A stretch of DNA of 41,688 bases, from the NCBI GenBank assembly GCA_007116495.1, contig SKIJ01000122.1:1-41688 (forward strand), read 5' to 3'. Position 1 is the first letter of the stretch. Each line of letters opens with the position of its first letter. The stretch comes from Cryomorphaceae bacterium. GTDB lineage: Bacteria > Bacteroidota > Bacteroidia > Flavobacteriales > Schleiferiaceae. Below, in pieces: positions 35,216 through 41,685 of this stretch. A program made the position numbers and the translations under genes. The notes below the pieces were generated by a model that worked only from the letters and a program-made list of their open reading frames with translations, made no database searches and was not told the origin of the DNA.

Positions 35216-35328
35216 CGTTTCATTTAGCGTAAGCTGTCAACTCAAAGGTGCCTTTACTTCTGTAGAGACAGTCATCATTAACTCATTAACCTCACGTGAT
35301 AACGGCACGTAGGTTTTATCGAAAACGT

Positions 35329-37638
35329 ATGAAGCGTATTGTACTTGTTGCTTGTGCTCTCCTGCCGCTTGTGGTATCTGCGCAAACGGTGTTTAATTGG
35401 ACAGAGCACATTTCGTTTAACAGTCTCAACGATGTCGTACAGGTAGGCGATTTGGCCTATGGCGCCACCGACTTGGCATTGTTTTCTTATAACAAACGCG
35501 ACGGTGATATTGAACGCATCACCAAGCAATCAGGCTTAAGCGATGTCAATATTGTATCGCTGGATGTACATCGCCCAACAGGCCGCATCGTTATCGGATA
35601 CGAAAACGGCAACATCGATCTTTACCGCAATGGGCGCATCACAAACATCAGTGACATTTCCCGTTCTACCTTGTTTTTGGGCAACCGTTTTTTGAACCAT
35701 TTACGCGTGTATGGCGACAACCTCTACGTGTCGATGGGATTTGGCATCGTGGTGATTGATTTGAACGAAAACCTGGTTAGAGAAACCTACGTCATTGGTG
35801 AAGGTGGTGCGCAAATTAACGTGTTTCAAGTTGCGATTGACTCCGCAGCTGGCAGCATCTATGCCGGAACGGAAAACGGTCTCTACCGAGCCTCTTTGTC
35901 TTCACCACTAGCTTTTTTTCAAAGCTGGGAACGCATCAGCCGTTTTGCCCAATTCGATGTTCATTTGGTCACGGTATTCAACGACAAGCCGTTTGTTTGC
36001 AAGCGCGAAACGTTTGGGATCTCGGAAGACAGCGTCTTTTACCTCAACAATGGCGTGTGGACCTATTTCGATGATCTGATTCCTCAAAATTACTCCGACT
36101 TAAAAACCAGTGAAGGCCTCCTGGTTGCGGTAAATGACTTTAGTGTACGCGCATACAACGAAAACCTCGGACGCATTTACAACATCACACCGGGCAATGT
36201 CAATCGCGATAATTTTAGCCCGGTTAAGGCAGTGCGCGACACCGAGCGCAACCGAATTTGGATGGCTACGGACGGTCTGGGGCTCTCAGAACTCAACCCC
36301 GGGGATTTCTTCTTTTCCTATTTACCCAATGGTCCTCAACGCAACCAAGCGTATAGCCTTTTCCACAATGGCGATAAGTTATACGTGTCTACGGCTTCGT
36401 TGTCTGGTACCTTCACCGAACAGTTCAACCGTTCCGGAATCTTTACATTTGAGGATTTCACCTGGGGAGGGATTCCGTCCGGAGAGCTGGGTAATGTATC
36501 GGATATCGTGTTTGTGATATCCAAACCAGACGACCCAAATCACCTTTACGCTGCTACCTGGGGAAATGGTTTAATCGAAATCAAAGATGGTGTAGAGATA
36601 GCCCGATACGACAACGACAACCTCACGGAGCACGCGCTCACTCCCGTCAATAATACCTCATCGCGGATTCGTGTGGGGAAAATGGATTTCGACAGTGAAG
36701 GCAATTTGTGGATGGTGACGTCGCAAAATGATAATCCGCTCTCGGTTCTTCGCGCGGACGGATCGTGGGAAAACTTCAGTTTGGGTTCGTTTGCAAGCAG
36801 CACAACCATCGTACAACACATGATGGTGACCAGCAGAGATCAGATTTGGGTGCAAACACGCGGTTCAGGCGTGGTGGTTTGTCGCCAAAATGAATCCGGC
36901 CAACTGGAAATAGAACGGTTAAACCAAAATGAAGGGCAAGGGGCTTTGCCGTCGAATATGGTCAACGCATTTGATGAGGACCGCAATGGCGCCATTTGGC
37001 TGGGAACATCGGCCGGTGTGGGCGTTATTTTTAATCCGCAGAATATTTTTGATGGAGACGGAAGTTTTGACGCCACCCGCATCACCTTCGAAGAAGATGG
37101 TGTAGTCCAGGCATTGTTATCGCAAGAAAATGTAACCACTGTATTCGTCGACGGTGCCAATAAAAAATGGTTTGGTACGAGCTTTCGCGGTGCTTTTTAT
37201 ACCTCTACCGATGGCCGTGAGGAGATCTATGCGTTCAATCAATCTACCAGTCCGTTGCCGAGTAACACAATTTTTGACATACAAGTAGACCCTGAATCGG
37301 GGGAAGTGTTTTTCGCAACGCCCGGAGGAATAACTTCATTTCGCGGTGCTGCAACCGAGGGAGGAGATGAATTTGAAACACCGTTTGTATACCCCAATCC
37401 TGTTCGTCCAGATTATGAAGGCCCCATTTTTATCCGTGGATTGGTTCGCGATGCACAAGTGAAAATCACTGACGTCAGTGGAAACCTAGTATACGAAACA
37501 CGAGCTGAGGGTGGGCAGGCCATATGGGATGGGAATCGCTTTGACGGCACGCCTGCTGCATCGGGTGTCTATTTGGCAATGATGAACAGTTCCGAAGGTC
37601 TTCAAACAGATGTCGTAAAAATTCTCATCGTTCGATAA
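35329..37638 (+). CDS. porZ: PorZ-like type IX secretion system protein, beta-propellers with T9SS tail
   Basis: A 769-residue exported protein. A signal peptide (KRIVLVACALLPLVVSAQ) precedes two propeller-type regions built from repeats such as GRIVIGYENGNIDLY, SIYAGTENGLYRASL, RIWMATDGLGLSEL and AIWLGTSAGVGVIF. The last 85 residues, from FVYPNPVRPDY to VVKILIVR, form a T9SS sorting domain. In characterised members PorZ is a surface component of the T9SS attachment complex that hands over A-type LPS to cargo. The assignment rests on architecture, on the N-terminal pattern and on the adjacent recO, which accompanies porZ in many Bacteroidota. ATG 35329 is preferred over GTG 35296 because it starts the signal peptide correctly. 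A generic two-component-regulator-propeller protein is the alternative. Confidence 0.8.
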   Translation: MKRIVLVACALLPLVVSAQTVFNWTEHISFNSLNDVVQVGDLAYGATDLALFSYNKRDGDIERITKQSGLSDVNIVSLDVHRPTGRIVIGYENGNIDLYRNGRITNISDISRSTLFLGNRFLNHLRVYGDNLYVSMGFGIVVIDLNENLVRETYVIGEGGAQINVFQVAIDSAAGSIYAGTENGLYRASLSSPLAFFQSWERISRFAQFDVHLVTVFNDKPFVCKRETFGISEDSVFYLNNGVWTYFDDLIPQNYSDLKTSEGLLVAVNDFSVRAYNENLGRIYNITPGNVNRDNFSPVKAVRDTERNRIWMATDGLGLSELNPGDFFFSYLPNGPQRNQAYSLFHNGDKLYVSTASLSGTFTEQFNRSGIFTFEDFTWGGIPSGELGNVSDIVFVISKPDDPNHLYAATWGNGLIEIKDGVEIARYDNDNLTEHALTPVNNTSSRIRVGKMDFDSEGNLWMVTSQNDNPLSVLRADGSWENFSLGSFASSTTIVQHMMVTSRDQIWVQTRGSGVVVCRQNESGQLEIERLNQNEGQGALPSNMVNAFDEDRNGAIWLGTSAGVGVIFNPQNIFDGDGSFDATRITFEEDGVVQALLSQENVTTVFVDGANKKWFGTSFRGAFYTSTDGREEIYAFNQSTSPLPSNTIFDIQVDPESGEVFFATPGGITSFRGAATEGGDEFETPFVYPNPVRPDYEGPIFIRGLVRDAQVKITDVSGNLVYETRAEGGQAIWDGNRFDGTPAASGVYLAMMNSSEGLQTDVVKILIVR

Positions 37639-37642
37639 CCCC

Positions 37643-38359
37643 ATGCTCAACAAAGCAACATTTGTTGTGCTCCGCAAATATCCCTTTGGAGACAACGGGC
37701 TGGTTGTACACGTGTTTTCCGATACATTCGGACGGGTGCCGCTTCTTCTAAAAAATGCTCGTTCGCGAAAAGCGCCACTGCCGTACGGCACGATACGTCC
37801 ACTCTACATGTTTGAGGGGGTATTAACCCGTTCTGGTGATTTTTGCCACGTTCGAGAGGCGCGACCACTCAAGCTGCTCGATAACATCATGAGTGATCCC
37901 CGCAAAACGGCCATTGCTTTTTTTATCGCCGATGTATGGTCGGGATGCCTGCGCGAACAAGACGAGCAAAAAGGCGTCTTTGCGTTCATTAAATCTACGG
38001 TTGAAACCCTAGAGGAGATGGCTCACGGCTGGTCGTTCTTTCATCATTGGGTGATGCTGCAAACCGCGCAACACTTAGGGTTTTCTCCCGGTGTAGGTTC
38101 GTTTAAAACGGAATTTTATCTCGATCTGTTACACGGCGAGTACACCCTTAGTCCTCCGGCGCACCCCTATACTGCGGGACCTGAAGACGCACAGTGCATC
38201 TCTTGGCTCAGTCAATTTTCTTCGCTTCCACCTACCGCGCCGCCCAACTGGAGCATCGGCAGAAAGCGCGAGGTGCTGCGGTTGCTCATAGACTTTTTTC
38301 GACTGCACGTGGATGGATTTAAAACACCGGGTAGTTTAGAGGTTTTAAATCAGTTATAG
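37643..38359 (+). CDS. recO: DNA repair protein RecO
   Basis: A recombination mediator that with RecR loads RecA at gaps and anneals strands. The 238 residues begin with the OB-fold region KATFVVLRKYPFGDNGLVVHVFSD, shortened here as VVLRKYPFGDNGLV, and FGRVPLLLKNARSRKA, followed by the helical domain. No CxxC zinc knuckle is visible, as in several Bacteroidota and Proteobacteria members. It starts four bases after porZ, so the two are probably co-transcribed, and ends 72 bases from the convergent fusion gene. Confidence 0.92.
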   Translation: MLNKATFVVLRKYPFGDNGLVVHVFSDTFGRVPLLLKNARSRKAPLPYGTIRPLYMFEGVLTRSGDFCHVREARPLKLLDNIMSDPRKTAIAFFIADVWSGCLREQDEQKGVFAFIKSTVETLEEMAHGWSFFHHWVMLQTAQHLGFSPGVGSFKTEFYLDLLHGEYTLSPPAHPYTAGPEDAQCISWLSQFSSLPPTAPPNWSIGRKREVLRLLIDFFRLHVDGFKTPGSLEVLNQL

Positions 38360-38431: not shown

Positions 38432-40894
38432 TTAGTTATTTGTAAATCGTCGCCATTCCGGATTGATGATGTTTTTCCAATTGTTGTTGTAGGGTATGTT
38501 GAGAAATGCACAAATGGCGCGTACTTGTTGTTCGGGCTCATCTACAAGCTTGTTAAAGTTTATAACGGTATAGGGCGTCCAGTGGGGATGAGCGTTCAAA
38601 AAGTCAATGGCCTCACGGTTGGTAGCTTCCAGTGATTCTTGGAGGTTGAAAGGCACGGATTGGGCGTTGATCATGTGGAGTTGACTGTGCACAATCTGAT
38701 CGATGTTCCGCTGCATAACGATTACGTTGTAGGTAGCGCCTCGTGAGATGTTGGGGAGTTGTGGACTGGTAATTTTGATTGCTTTCCCTTGAAGGTCATC
38801 GAGAAAGCGATTGTCGATGTGCAGCCGTTTTACCCCATCGTATTCGTAGTAGCCACCTTTGTTGAAGGCGTCGGGGGTTCGTCTTTTATCGGTGTGTACG
38901 GGCACGCCCAAGGATTCGAGTATTTGCATCATCAGTGATGTGCCGCTTCGGGGCAATCCGCTGACCACAATCACCGGTGTTTCGCGTTTTGTAGGTGTGT
39001 GAAAGTGCTGCTGTAAAAATGCGCGCAATTCGGCGTTATTTGGTTGCTGTTGGATGCTGAGCTGCAGCGCGAGGTATGCTTGTTGGGGTTGCTTTAAGCG
39101 CAGCAGCAGTTTGCCGATAAAGGCGTGAACGTTGGGGGCGAAATGCTGCTTTTCCGTGATCTCTAACGCATGTTCAAGGGCATCCTCTAGTTGATCATTT
39201 GCCGCCAGCGCACGTGCCAAACCAAAGGCGGCATCTGTGGCGTCGAGGTCTTTAGCCGTAGCCGATTCAAAGCATTGGATGGCTTTGGCCGTTTGTTTAG
39301 CCGATAACCATAAATTACCGATTAATGTAAGCCAGCCTGCCGGATAGTTCATGTCCTTTGGCAATTGTTTAAGCGCCGATATAAGCGCCATATTGTTCCC
39401 TTTTACAGTTGCCAGCATGGCGTTTACTATGGGCTGCCATTCACCGGGAAAGTGCTCAATTTGCCCTTCCGCTGTTTGTACGTCACCGGCTTGAAACGCT
39501 GCTTGGGTATAGAGCATGCGCGTTGATAAAGGCGTGTTTTTGTCTATGAGGGCTTCAAGCACACGTAGCGCGTTGCCGGGCTGAAGCCCATCCATGTAGC
39601 TGCGGGCGAGATTGACGGTATTTTCATCCTGTTGTTTGCGGTTTGACGCATCCCGATCGATGTACCCGAGAGCTGCGAGGTGATCGAGGTAATTGGACGG
39701 AATGTCGGTAGAGCTGTTCGTCGTTCGGAGGTGATCGTAGGTGTCTACCGGAGCCAATGATGTTGGATTGCTTAGGTAATCGTTAAGCACTCTACCGTGC
39801 ATATCACGAGACGAAGGGATGGAGAAAAGCCCCAGTAGTGAAGGCGTAATATCGGCAATGCTTGCGCCGAAGATGGGTTTGCGTTGGATAAACCCGGGAC
39901 CGGCCGTTACCAATGCACCGAAGTAACGGTGGTCGAGTTGCGGAGCTAAAGGGTCGTCAGCCGGGAGGGCGTCGCGCATGTTTCCTTGTTTCTGGAAACC
40001 GTGATCACTCATCAGCATAACGTTGGTTTGCTCATCGCAGTAGTATAGGAGTCCGCCCAGCATCAAATCGTGTAAGCGGTAAGCAGCCTCCACAATTTTA
40101 GGTTCATCTCGGTGTTCGCGAACCCCAAGATGGCAAAAGTGATCCAGTGCATCGAAGTACACCGCGTGCAAGTCGGTATCGAAATGATGGAGAAGGTAGG
40201 TGGACGCCATTTGCACAGAAAGAGCGCGTGCCAGAATGTGCATAACGGCGCGTGTTTTGGTGTCTTTGGCGGGGTGTCCCGGATTGTTTAAAAACAGCTG
40301 CACCCATTCAAACGGAATCCACTCGGGCTGAATGCGGCACGACTGCAACGGTTTAGAAAGCGATTCCGGCCACGCAAATCCTATGGCCGGGGCGTCACCG
40401 TGGTGAAAGAGATTAGACACCATTTGTCCTTTGAGAGGTTCAGCCGGGTGCGACGGCCACCAACCCACCACTTGAGTGCGGTAGTCGTGGTGGTTCAGGA
40501 TTTCCCAAAATGCCGCCGCAGTACGTGATCGTCCGCTTACGGGTTGAATTTTTTGCGCTTCGTTGATTTCGGTGAATCCATGTATGCCGTGGGCATAAGG
40601 TCGCTTACCCGTTGCGATGGTTGTCCAAAGCATGGGGCTCAGCATGGGGTGCATACTGGCGAGTTGTCCGCGAGCTCCGCGTTGCAGCAATGATTGAAGA
40701 ACCGGCATCTTGCCTTCCGCAAGCAACGGGTCAATGTATTGCCAGTCTGCTGCATCCCAGCCGACCAAAAGAGTTTTTACGGGCCTTGTTTTGCGCGCAG
40801 AAGGAACGGAGGACTCTCTCCCGCAGTGTTGATGCCAGTGGTGTAGGTTTCGGTAGCCCGCAGCAATTGCGGAGATGGGATAGTCATCGAACAT
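38432..40894 (-). CDS. Three-part fusion: alkaline-phosphatase-superfamily phosphodiesterase, TPR region, sulfotransferase
   Basis: An 820-residue protein without a signal peptide. Residues 40-400 are a type I phosphodiesterase/nucleotide pyrophosphatase-like domain of the alkaline phosphatase superfamily: LVGWDAADW with Asp47, the active-site-region SPMLWTTIATGK at 86-97, metal ligands in DALDHFCH (Asp248, Asp251, His252) and MSDHGF (Asp297, His298). Residues 430-630 are helical TPR-like repeats (AIQCFESATAKDLDATDAAFGLARAL, shortened as AAFGLARALAANDQLEDAL). Residues 640-820 are a sulfotransferase-type domain with the PAPS 5'-phosphosulfate loop GLPRSGTS at 646-653 and a 3'-phosphate-like VIVMQRNIDQIVHS. 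The start at ATG 40894 is preferred; a TTG 45 bases upstream adds unconserved sequence. The substrates of either enzyme domain are unknown. It follows comF on the same strand by 95 bases. Confidence 0.8.
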   Translation of the reverse strand: MFDDYPISAIAAGYRNLHHWHQHCGRESSVPSARKTRPVKTLLVGWDAADWQYIDPLLAEGKMPVLQSLLQRGARGQLASMHPMLSPMLWTTIATGKRPYAHGIHGFTEINEAQKIQPVSGRSRTAAAFWEILNHHDYRTQVVGWWPSHPAEPLKGQMVSNLFHHGDAPAIGFAWPESLSKPLQSCRIQPEWIPFEWVQLFLNNPGHPAKDTKTRAVMHILARALSVQMASTYLLHHFDTDLHAVYFDALDHFCHLGVREHRDEPKIVEAAYRLHDLMLGGLLYYCDEQTNVMLMSDHGFQKQGNMRDALPADDPLAPQLDHRYFGALVTAGPGFIQRKPIFGASIADITPSLLGLFSIPSSRDMHGRVLNDYLSNPTSLAPVDTYDHLRTTNSSTDIPSNYLDHLAALGYIDRDASNRKQQDENTVNLARSYMDGLQPGNALRVLEALIDKNTPLSTRMLYTQAAFQAGDVQTAEGQIEHFPGEWQPIVNAMLATVKGNNMALISALKQLPKDMNYPAGWLTLIGNLWLSAKQTAKAIQCFESATAKDLDATDAAFGLARALAANDQLEDALEHALEITEKQHFAPNVHAFIGKLLLRLKQPQQAYLALQLSIQQQPNNAELRAFLQQHFHTPTKRETPVIVVSGLPRSGTSLMMQILESLGVPVHTDKRRTPDAFNKGGYYEYDGVKRLHIDNRFLDDLQGKAIKITSPQLPNISRGATYNVIVMQRNIDQIVHSQLHMINAQSVPFNLQESLEATNREAIDFLNAHPHWTPYTVINFNKLVDEPEQQVRAICAFLNIPYNNNWKNIINPEWRRFTNN

Positions 40895-40989: not shown

Positions 40990-41685
40990 CTACTCGCTGG
41001 CCAAAGCGGCCGACATGACGCTGATGCGTAAGTCCGGTCGATGTTCTAGGAGTACATGAGCGCAAGCTTCTAACGTTGCGCCAGTGGTAATCACATCATC
41101 GATCAGCATGATGTGTGCACAGGGGGGAAGGTTTAATAGGTGATTGGCCTGAAAACTACGTGCGGCATTTTCCCATCTCGCCCAGCGATGAAGTTTCGTT
41201 TGCGACGGTGCGTTGACCGAGCGTTCGAGGACCTGATACGGAATAGGTGCTTCGCAAACCGTATGCATTCCACGGGCTATTTCTTCCGCTTGATTGTAGC
41301 CGCGAACAGCGCGTTTTTTAGGGTGAATGGGCACCGGAATCAAATAATCCGGTTGTTCGTGCAAGGGGCGAGATACCAATTGATATCCCATATACAAGCC
41401 CAAGTAGCGGCCAACACCCGGTTGTTGTTTGTACTTGAGTTGATGCATCAACCGTTGCACGGCGCTCTGTTTTTTGAAATAACAAAATGCATCGGCGTAT
41501 AAAAGAGGAATGCGCCCGAAGAAGATGTCGGTTATGGGATTGTTCTGCATGGATCGAAAACGCGTACGCGGCAACTCATCTTCACAGAACAAGCACAGGT
41601 AGCGTTCACTGGGTGTAAGCGTGCGTTCGCAGTTGACGCACACATCGGGGTAGATGAAATGAAGTAGAGCATCAATGGGGTTCAT
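40990..41685 (-). CDS. comF: ComF-family phosphoribosyltransferase-like protein
   Basis: A 231-residue cytoplasmic protein. An N-terminal zinc ribbon has Cys16, Cys19, Cys31 and Cys34 (CVNC and CLFC). The motif PVPIHPKKRAVRGYNQAEEIA and the PRPP-binding loop IMLIDDVITTGATLEAC near residue 195 define ComF/GntX. Family members act in DNA uptake (ComFC) or are of unknown role in non-competent species, so uptake is not proven here. The ATG is complete, three bases before the window end. It is transcribed toward the fusion gene and may be its upstream partner. Confidence 0.9.
   Translation of the reverse strand: MNPIDALLHFIYPDVCVNCERTLTPSERYLCLFCEDELPRTRFRSMQNNPITDIFFGRIPLLYADAFCYFKKQSAVQRLMHQLKYKQQPGVGRYLGLYMGYQLVSRPLHEQPDYLIPVPIHPKKRAVRGYNQAEEIARGMHTVCEAPIPYQVLERSVNAPSQTKLHRWARWENAARSFQANHLLNLPPCAHIMLIDDVITTGATLEACAHVLLEHRPDLRISVMSAALASE

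Follow-up and report, generated by a model that had tools for sequence, protein, structure and literature searches.

To our knowledge, protein sulfation has been recognized in very few bacterial cases, with RaxX as the standard one. The RaxST/RaxX model of Xanthomonas comprises a leader-bearing precursor, a dedicated sulfotransferase and an exported product (PMC4216712); the RaxX precursor is about 60 residues long (PMC6637879). Here we describe a gene which joins a putative PAPS-dependent sulfotransferase domain to TPR repeats and to a hydrolase domain of the alkaline phosphatase (AlkP) superfamily, together with a surface protein encoded beside it in many genomes. The gene lies in contig SKIJ01000122.1 of a Cryomorphaceae bacterium (assembly GCA_007116495.1), and the window denotes the whole stretch of 41,688 nt that was analysed. 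No description of the fusion or of the enzyme-leader pair was found in the literature searched, which was mostly without subscription journals, and the three-domain fusion with its leader-bearing partner suggests an apparently undescribed system.

The fusion protein and its two catalytic sites

The fusion gene is an uninterrupted minus-strand frame with the stop codon ending at 38432 (Table 1); the plus strand carries 25 stops over the same interval, so the strand matters for this gene. It is flanked by a RecO-type gene on one side and a ComF-type gene on the other, and the order of ComF and fusion genes recurs in the congener G002. The gene is single-copy in its own genome (2.33 Mb assembly, 94% complete). 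A PorZ gene of the type IX secretion system (T9SS) is located two genes from the fusion, so the window genome encodes T9SS parts.

Pfam search gave the domain order PF01663, TPR, PF13469, with E=3.4e-26 for PF01663 (residues 41-324, 93 bits against a cut-off of 23), 3.5e-8 and 3.8e-7 for TPR_16 and TPR_19 (within residues 409-620) and 6.4e-12 for PF13469 (46.6 bits against a cut-off of 27); PF00685 matched weakly. The AlphaFold2 model has a mean pLDDT of 88.9 and is confident across the hydrolase, TPR and sulfotransferase domains, with residues 1-31 below 50. The sequence-only reading had proposed these three domains in one 820-residue chain with no signal peptide and a PAPS-type P-loop, and the analysis bears it out on each point: the frame is open throughout, a signal peptide is absent, the C-terminal region matches a sulfotransferase profile and the loop is present and conserved. 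An assembly or frameshift artefact was considered as the source of the fusion and dropped, since the fused chain is conserved in many genomes. Several fusion copies carry a short GYxxLxxW-like helix ahead of the AlkP domain, and this helix may serve as a membrane or leader contact.

Table 1. Position of the fusion gene, its domains and sites, and its neighbors in the window
Feature	Position	Strand	Basis
AlkP-TPR-sulfotransferase fusion gene	38432..40894	-	820 aa, ATG at 40894; Pfam, AlphaFold2
N-terminal helix, residues 8-23 (AAGYRNLHHW)	40826..40873	-	modelled with low confidence; other copies have a similar stretch
AlkP-superfamily hydrolase domain, residues ~38-378	39761..40783	-	PF01663, conserved residues, fold comparison, PDB profile search
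Ser86 codon, putative AlkP nucleophile	40637..40639	-	110/110 Ser; aligned with Thr of 3szy and Ala of 3t02
TPR helices, residues ~401-631	39002..39694	-	Pfam, AlphaFold2
PAPS sulfotransferase domain (putative), residues ~640-816	38447..38977	-	PF13469; top PDB sequences SULT1A, TPST1/2
5'-phosphosulfate loop GLPRSGTS, residues 646-653	38936..38959	-	sequence, alignment conservation
3'-phosphate loop, R729 to S737	38684..38710	-	R729 107/110, S737 106/110
RecO-type gene	37643..38359	+	
ComF-type gene	40990..41685	-	
PorZ gene of the T9SS	35296..37638		NF052228, 594 bits

In an alignment of 110 fusion copies, the AlkP residues S86, D251, H255, D297, H298 and H322 are invariant, and all 109 copies that align at position 47 have Asp there (D47). 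The hydrolase residues first proposed therefore stand in part: Asp47, Asp251, Asp297 and His298 are conserved, while Asp248 (Asp in 84 of 110) and His252 (103 of 110) vary and, as judged from the alignment, are not metal ligands, H255 and H322 being invariant instead. S86 aligns with the Thr of the phosphonoacetate hydrolase 3szy and the Ala of the variant 3t02, which is the nucleophile position, and the two-metal pattern D/S(T)/D/H/D/H/H of the NPP-like AlkP superfamily (PF01663) is complete. The best PDB sequences for the AlkP profile are phosphonoacetate hydrolases. Structural comparison of the model (VIA) found the folds of ENPP1/3 and PafA with Z scores of 26-27 over 280-325 residues, so that the AlkP fold matches both NPP and PafA.

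The PAPS site at the other end of the protein, formed by the GLPRSGTS loop with R729 and S737, is retained in about 106 of the 110 copies, and D669, R672, N678 and E684 of the same domain are nearly invariant. With a PF13469 match above the cut-off, the 5'-PSB loop and the 3'-PB Arg and Ser, the protein is a predicted PAPS-dependent sulfotransferase. Among PDB sequences TPST1 ranked first in a single-sequence phmmer search (E=0.0013); because the profile search ranked the cytosolic SULT1A first, the domain is not specifically of the TPST type. Fold searches with the whole model returned no sulfotransferase row; AlkP matches filled the list, which makes them uninformative on the fold of this domain.

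Distribution of the fusion and of its surface-protein partner

The fusion had been taken as unfamiliar, a view that the survey overturns. An alignment-based scan of GTDB contigs yielded at least 549 confirmed relatives, of which the best 80 include 79 fused chains with a sulfotransferase model above 15 bits and one split locus (L072); a single-sequence scan of genome contigs had found no relatives. By record titles, which can be wrong for MAGs, the carriers are Bacteroidota, Verrucomicrobiota, delta-, gamma- and betaproteobacterial, desulfobacterial and acidobacterial. One locus titled Candidatus Rokubacteria (L076) has a fusion and a T9SS-tailed partner of flavobacterial appearance, and its contig may be misbinned. 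A fusion match was present in 59 of 198 relative genomes. In the family of the window genome 28 additional homologues, complete or nearly so, align with the window protein at 29-63% identity, which puts the PAPS site far beyond chance. Phage sequences gave no match to the fusion, and plasmid sequences matched the AlkP part only, mostly in haloarchaea.

Clustering of all flank genes at 80 fusion loci placed one family at 54 of them, the next commonest occurring at 11. By profile search this partner is found in the flanks of 61 of the 80 loci, with a median gap of 82 bp to the closest copy, and in 57 loci it is within 500 bp of the fusion, on either side and either strand. The partner is an exported surface protein of about 280 aa whose mature domain is unannotated: essentially only the tails are recognized by Pfam and NCBIfam, being T9SS type A in 31, PEP-CTERM in 5 and IPTL-CTERM in 1 of 42 members. 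The partner model has a beta-sandwich mature domain followed by the sorting domain; beyond the sorting tail there was no clear PDB match, which does not in itself imply a new fold. Among the 42 aligned members no acceptor residue is universal, the best conserved Tyr positions being in the leader (40/42), in HYGW (39/42) and after the signal cleavage site (35/42).

Chance adjacency was dropped as an explanation, as there is about one full-length partner per genome in the family of the window genome. Fusion and partner are adjacent on one contig in 37 of the 43 family genomes that have both (counted from two result tables), among them the congener G003. Cultivated strains with an adjacent pair include Phaeocystidibacter luteus and Marinirhabdus gelatinilytica. 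Two to four tandem partners occur at four loci (L037, L055, L063 and L071), and arrays downstream of one fusion gene were noted at L037:6162-10018, L055:10661-13370 and L063:10663-12494. The window genome also has an intact partner, located on another contig and unlinked to the fusion (G000:C122:9862-10680; L148:5857-6729, minus strand), with the leader MKKSLSDKLKQYGAIAAG and a T9SS tail (Por_Secre_tail TIGR04183, 25.4 bits against a cut-off of 23). As judged by eye, it sits between two NAD-dependent epimerase/reductase-like genes.

Loci with a split or decayed fusion retain the sulfotransferase. At L072 the AlkP-TPR part and the sulfotransferase are two ORFs about 30 bp apart, and L074 has one fused and a second, split copy. 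At L100:7953-10577, L101:1253-3805 and L108:8617-11196 the fused sulfotransferase domain lacks the P-loop and scores 46-78 bits, compared to about 200. Each of these five loci carries an intact separate sulfotransferase of 184-195 aa, which suggests joint selection of sulfotransferase activity with the AlkP-TPR part and the partner. The coupling of hydrolase and sulfotransferase activities, an idea already raised by the sequence-only reading, gains support from this, as loci in which the fused domain has split off or decayed still combine the AlkP-TPR chain with an intact sulfotransferase.

The partner leader and the supply of PAPS

The partners share a leader motif, KLxxY[S/T/G]AxAxA, across lineages with different C-terminal tails. 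The partner domain is also present in relatives that have no fusion, which served as the control. A strict regular expression for the leader missed 14 leaders (Fisher p=0.001), and a looser pattern matched ordinary signal peptides (p=0.13). In place of these two patterns a leader-only profile was used, trained on 32 leaders, all from outside the family of the window genome. The leader tracks the enzyme: 34 partners from fusion-bearing genomes scored 4.1-34 bits, in contrast to -5 to 4.3 bits for 13 of 14 partners from fusion-less genomes (p=2e-6 by a Mann-Whitney test without phylogenetic correction). On the partner tree the fusion-less state requires four changes, and these partners are thus not one clade. 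The exception is the congener G001 (29.8 bits; C67, C26), in which a leader-bearing partner is present, the fusion was not found and other genes adjoin recO. Weak scores were noted in a few fusion-bearing genomes (G033, G041, G056). With a second profile, covering the leader and the first mature residues, the partner is the one strong match in the window genome and in G006, G011 and G016 and a weak one in G003; nothing was matched in the fusion-less G014. A motif of this kind is seldom conserved in signal peptides, which makes a dedicated reader of the leader likely.

APS kinase was found in four congeners. In G002 and G003 its gene adjoins a CysD-sized gene, and a CysH-sized (PAPS reductase) match was not found in G001-G003; on this basis G002 and G003 make PAPS, apparently for sulfation, where the distinction of CysD and CysH is our reading of frame lengths. 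The window genome, at 94% completeness, gave a weak spurious APS kinase match only, and at least 16 fusion-bearing relatives, mostly of one genus, gave no match. Several relatives are without the whole APS kinase/CysD cluster, and some of these retain a CysH-sized gene; gaps in the assemblies are a plausible, if unproven, explanation. ATP sulfurylase of the PF01747 type was absent from all 60 genomes searched, which is uninformative, as this lineage uses CysD-type genes.

A candidate leader-guided modification, its alternatives and related systems

We propose, with confidence just short of an even chance, that the fusion is a cytoplasmic, leader-guided PAPS sulfotransferase which modifies a dedicated surface protein before export. 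In this two-component arrangement the fusion would act as the enzyme and would recognize, through its TPR region or the N-terminal helix, the leader KLxxY[STG]AxAxA of one precursor, presumably the partner. The sulfotransferase domain would then transfer sulfate from PAPS to a side chain of the precursor or to a group carried by it, and the modified partner would be anchored at the surface by the sorting system of the lineage (T9SS in the window genome). The AlkP domain would support the same reaction; most likely it would hydrolyze a phosphate ester, for instance PAP formed as by-product, or else prepare the acceptor. Its role is the weakest point of the proposal. Somewhat more tentative is the general form of this reading, a widespread protein-sulfation system in which the AlkP-TPR-sulfotransferase chain reads the leader and modifies a single dedicated surface protein of each genome ahead of export, whichever anchoring system the lineage uses. 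Counting against the proposal are the fusion-bearing relatives that gave no APS kinase match, the unlinked pair in the window genome, G001, the genomes with weak leaders and the lack of a universal acceptor.

The partner could instead be a carrier, itself unsulfated, to which a sulfated or phosphorylated glycan or lipid made or trimmed by the fusion is attached or bound, such as the glycolipid that anchors T9SS or exosortase cargo. Lipid and sugar phosphate esters are substrates of AlkP-superfamily enzymes, and together with the sorting tails of the partner and a beta-sandwich without invariant tyrosine this would favor such a role. We nevertheless regard it as rather unlikely, given that it is the N-terminal leader, and not the C-terminal anchor, which tracks the enzyme, that the same enzyme accompanies the partner across lineages with different anchors, and that no recurrent glycan genes were found among the neighbors of the 80 fusion loci. 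Still less probable is that the two catalytic ends exchange phosphate and sulfate groups of a free glycan or a nucleotide, as originally suggested; the surface protein would then be a mere neighbor. Both catalytic sites are intact, and the two parts remain together when split, which speaks for the exchange; it leaves unexplained, however, the adjacency in 61 of 80 loci over several phyla and the correlation of leader and enzyme, and the recurrent neighbor is a leader-bearing exported protein and no glycan locus. A scaffold function, in which the sulfotransferase domain binds leader or nucleotide without catalysis and AlkP is the sole enzyme, would agree with the pseudo-sulfotransferase domains at L100, L101 and L108. 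Those same loci each carry the intact separate sulfotransferase, and at other loci the PAPS residues persist (about 106 of the 110 aligned copies), which makes a scaffold very improbable.

If leader-guided sulfation is correct, modification of surface proteins by sulfate would be a common bacterial trait, brought about by an enzyme-substrate pair over several phyla. The pair supplies a concrete candidate substrate and would give a role to a surface-protein family so far without annotation, and the fused, split and decayed domains offer a natural experiment on why AlkP and sulfotransferase are kept together.

Like RaxST and RaxX, the pair comprises a leader-bearing precursor, a putative dedicated PAPS sulfotransferase encoded nearby and an exported product, and a function in the manner of RaxST/RaxX fits these features; it is not placed in that class, as the partner has no invariant acceptor residue. 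RaxST is moreover a stand-alone enzyme whereas the fusion has AlkP and TPR domains, and RaxX is a small peptide with type I export, compared to a surface protein of about 280 aa with a T9SS, PEP-CTERM or IPTL-CTERM tail. The animal tyrosylprotein sulfotransferases TPST1 and TPST2 share the PRSGT loop, TPST1 being the first phmmer match, but are Golgi enzymes with neither AlkP nor TPR. The AlkP domain resembles Xac NPP, ENPP1/3, phosphonoacetate hydrolase and PafA in fold and two-metal residue pattern; it differs from these in having Ser rather than Thr as putative nucleophile, in lacking a signal peptide and in its fusion to TPR and sulfotransferase domains. The partner bears the C-terminal sorting tails of PEP-CTERM/exosortase and T9SS cargo, yet in contrast to such cargo the feature tracking the enzyme is its N-terminal leader, common to the lineages whatever the tail.
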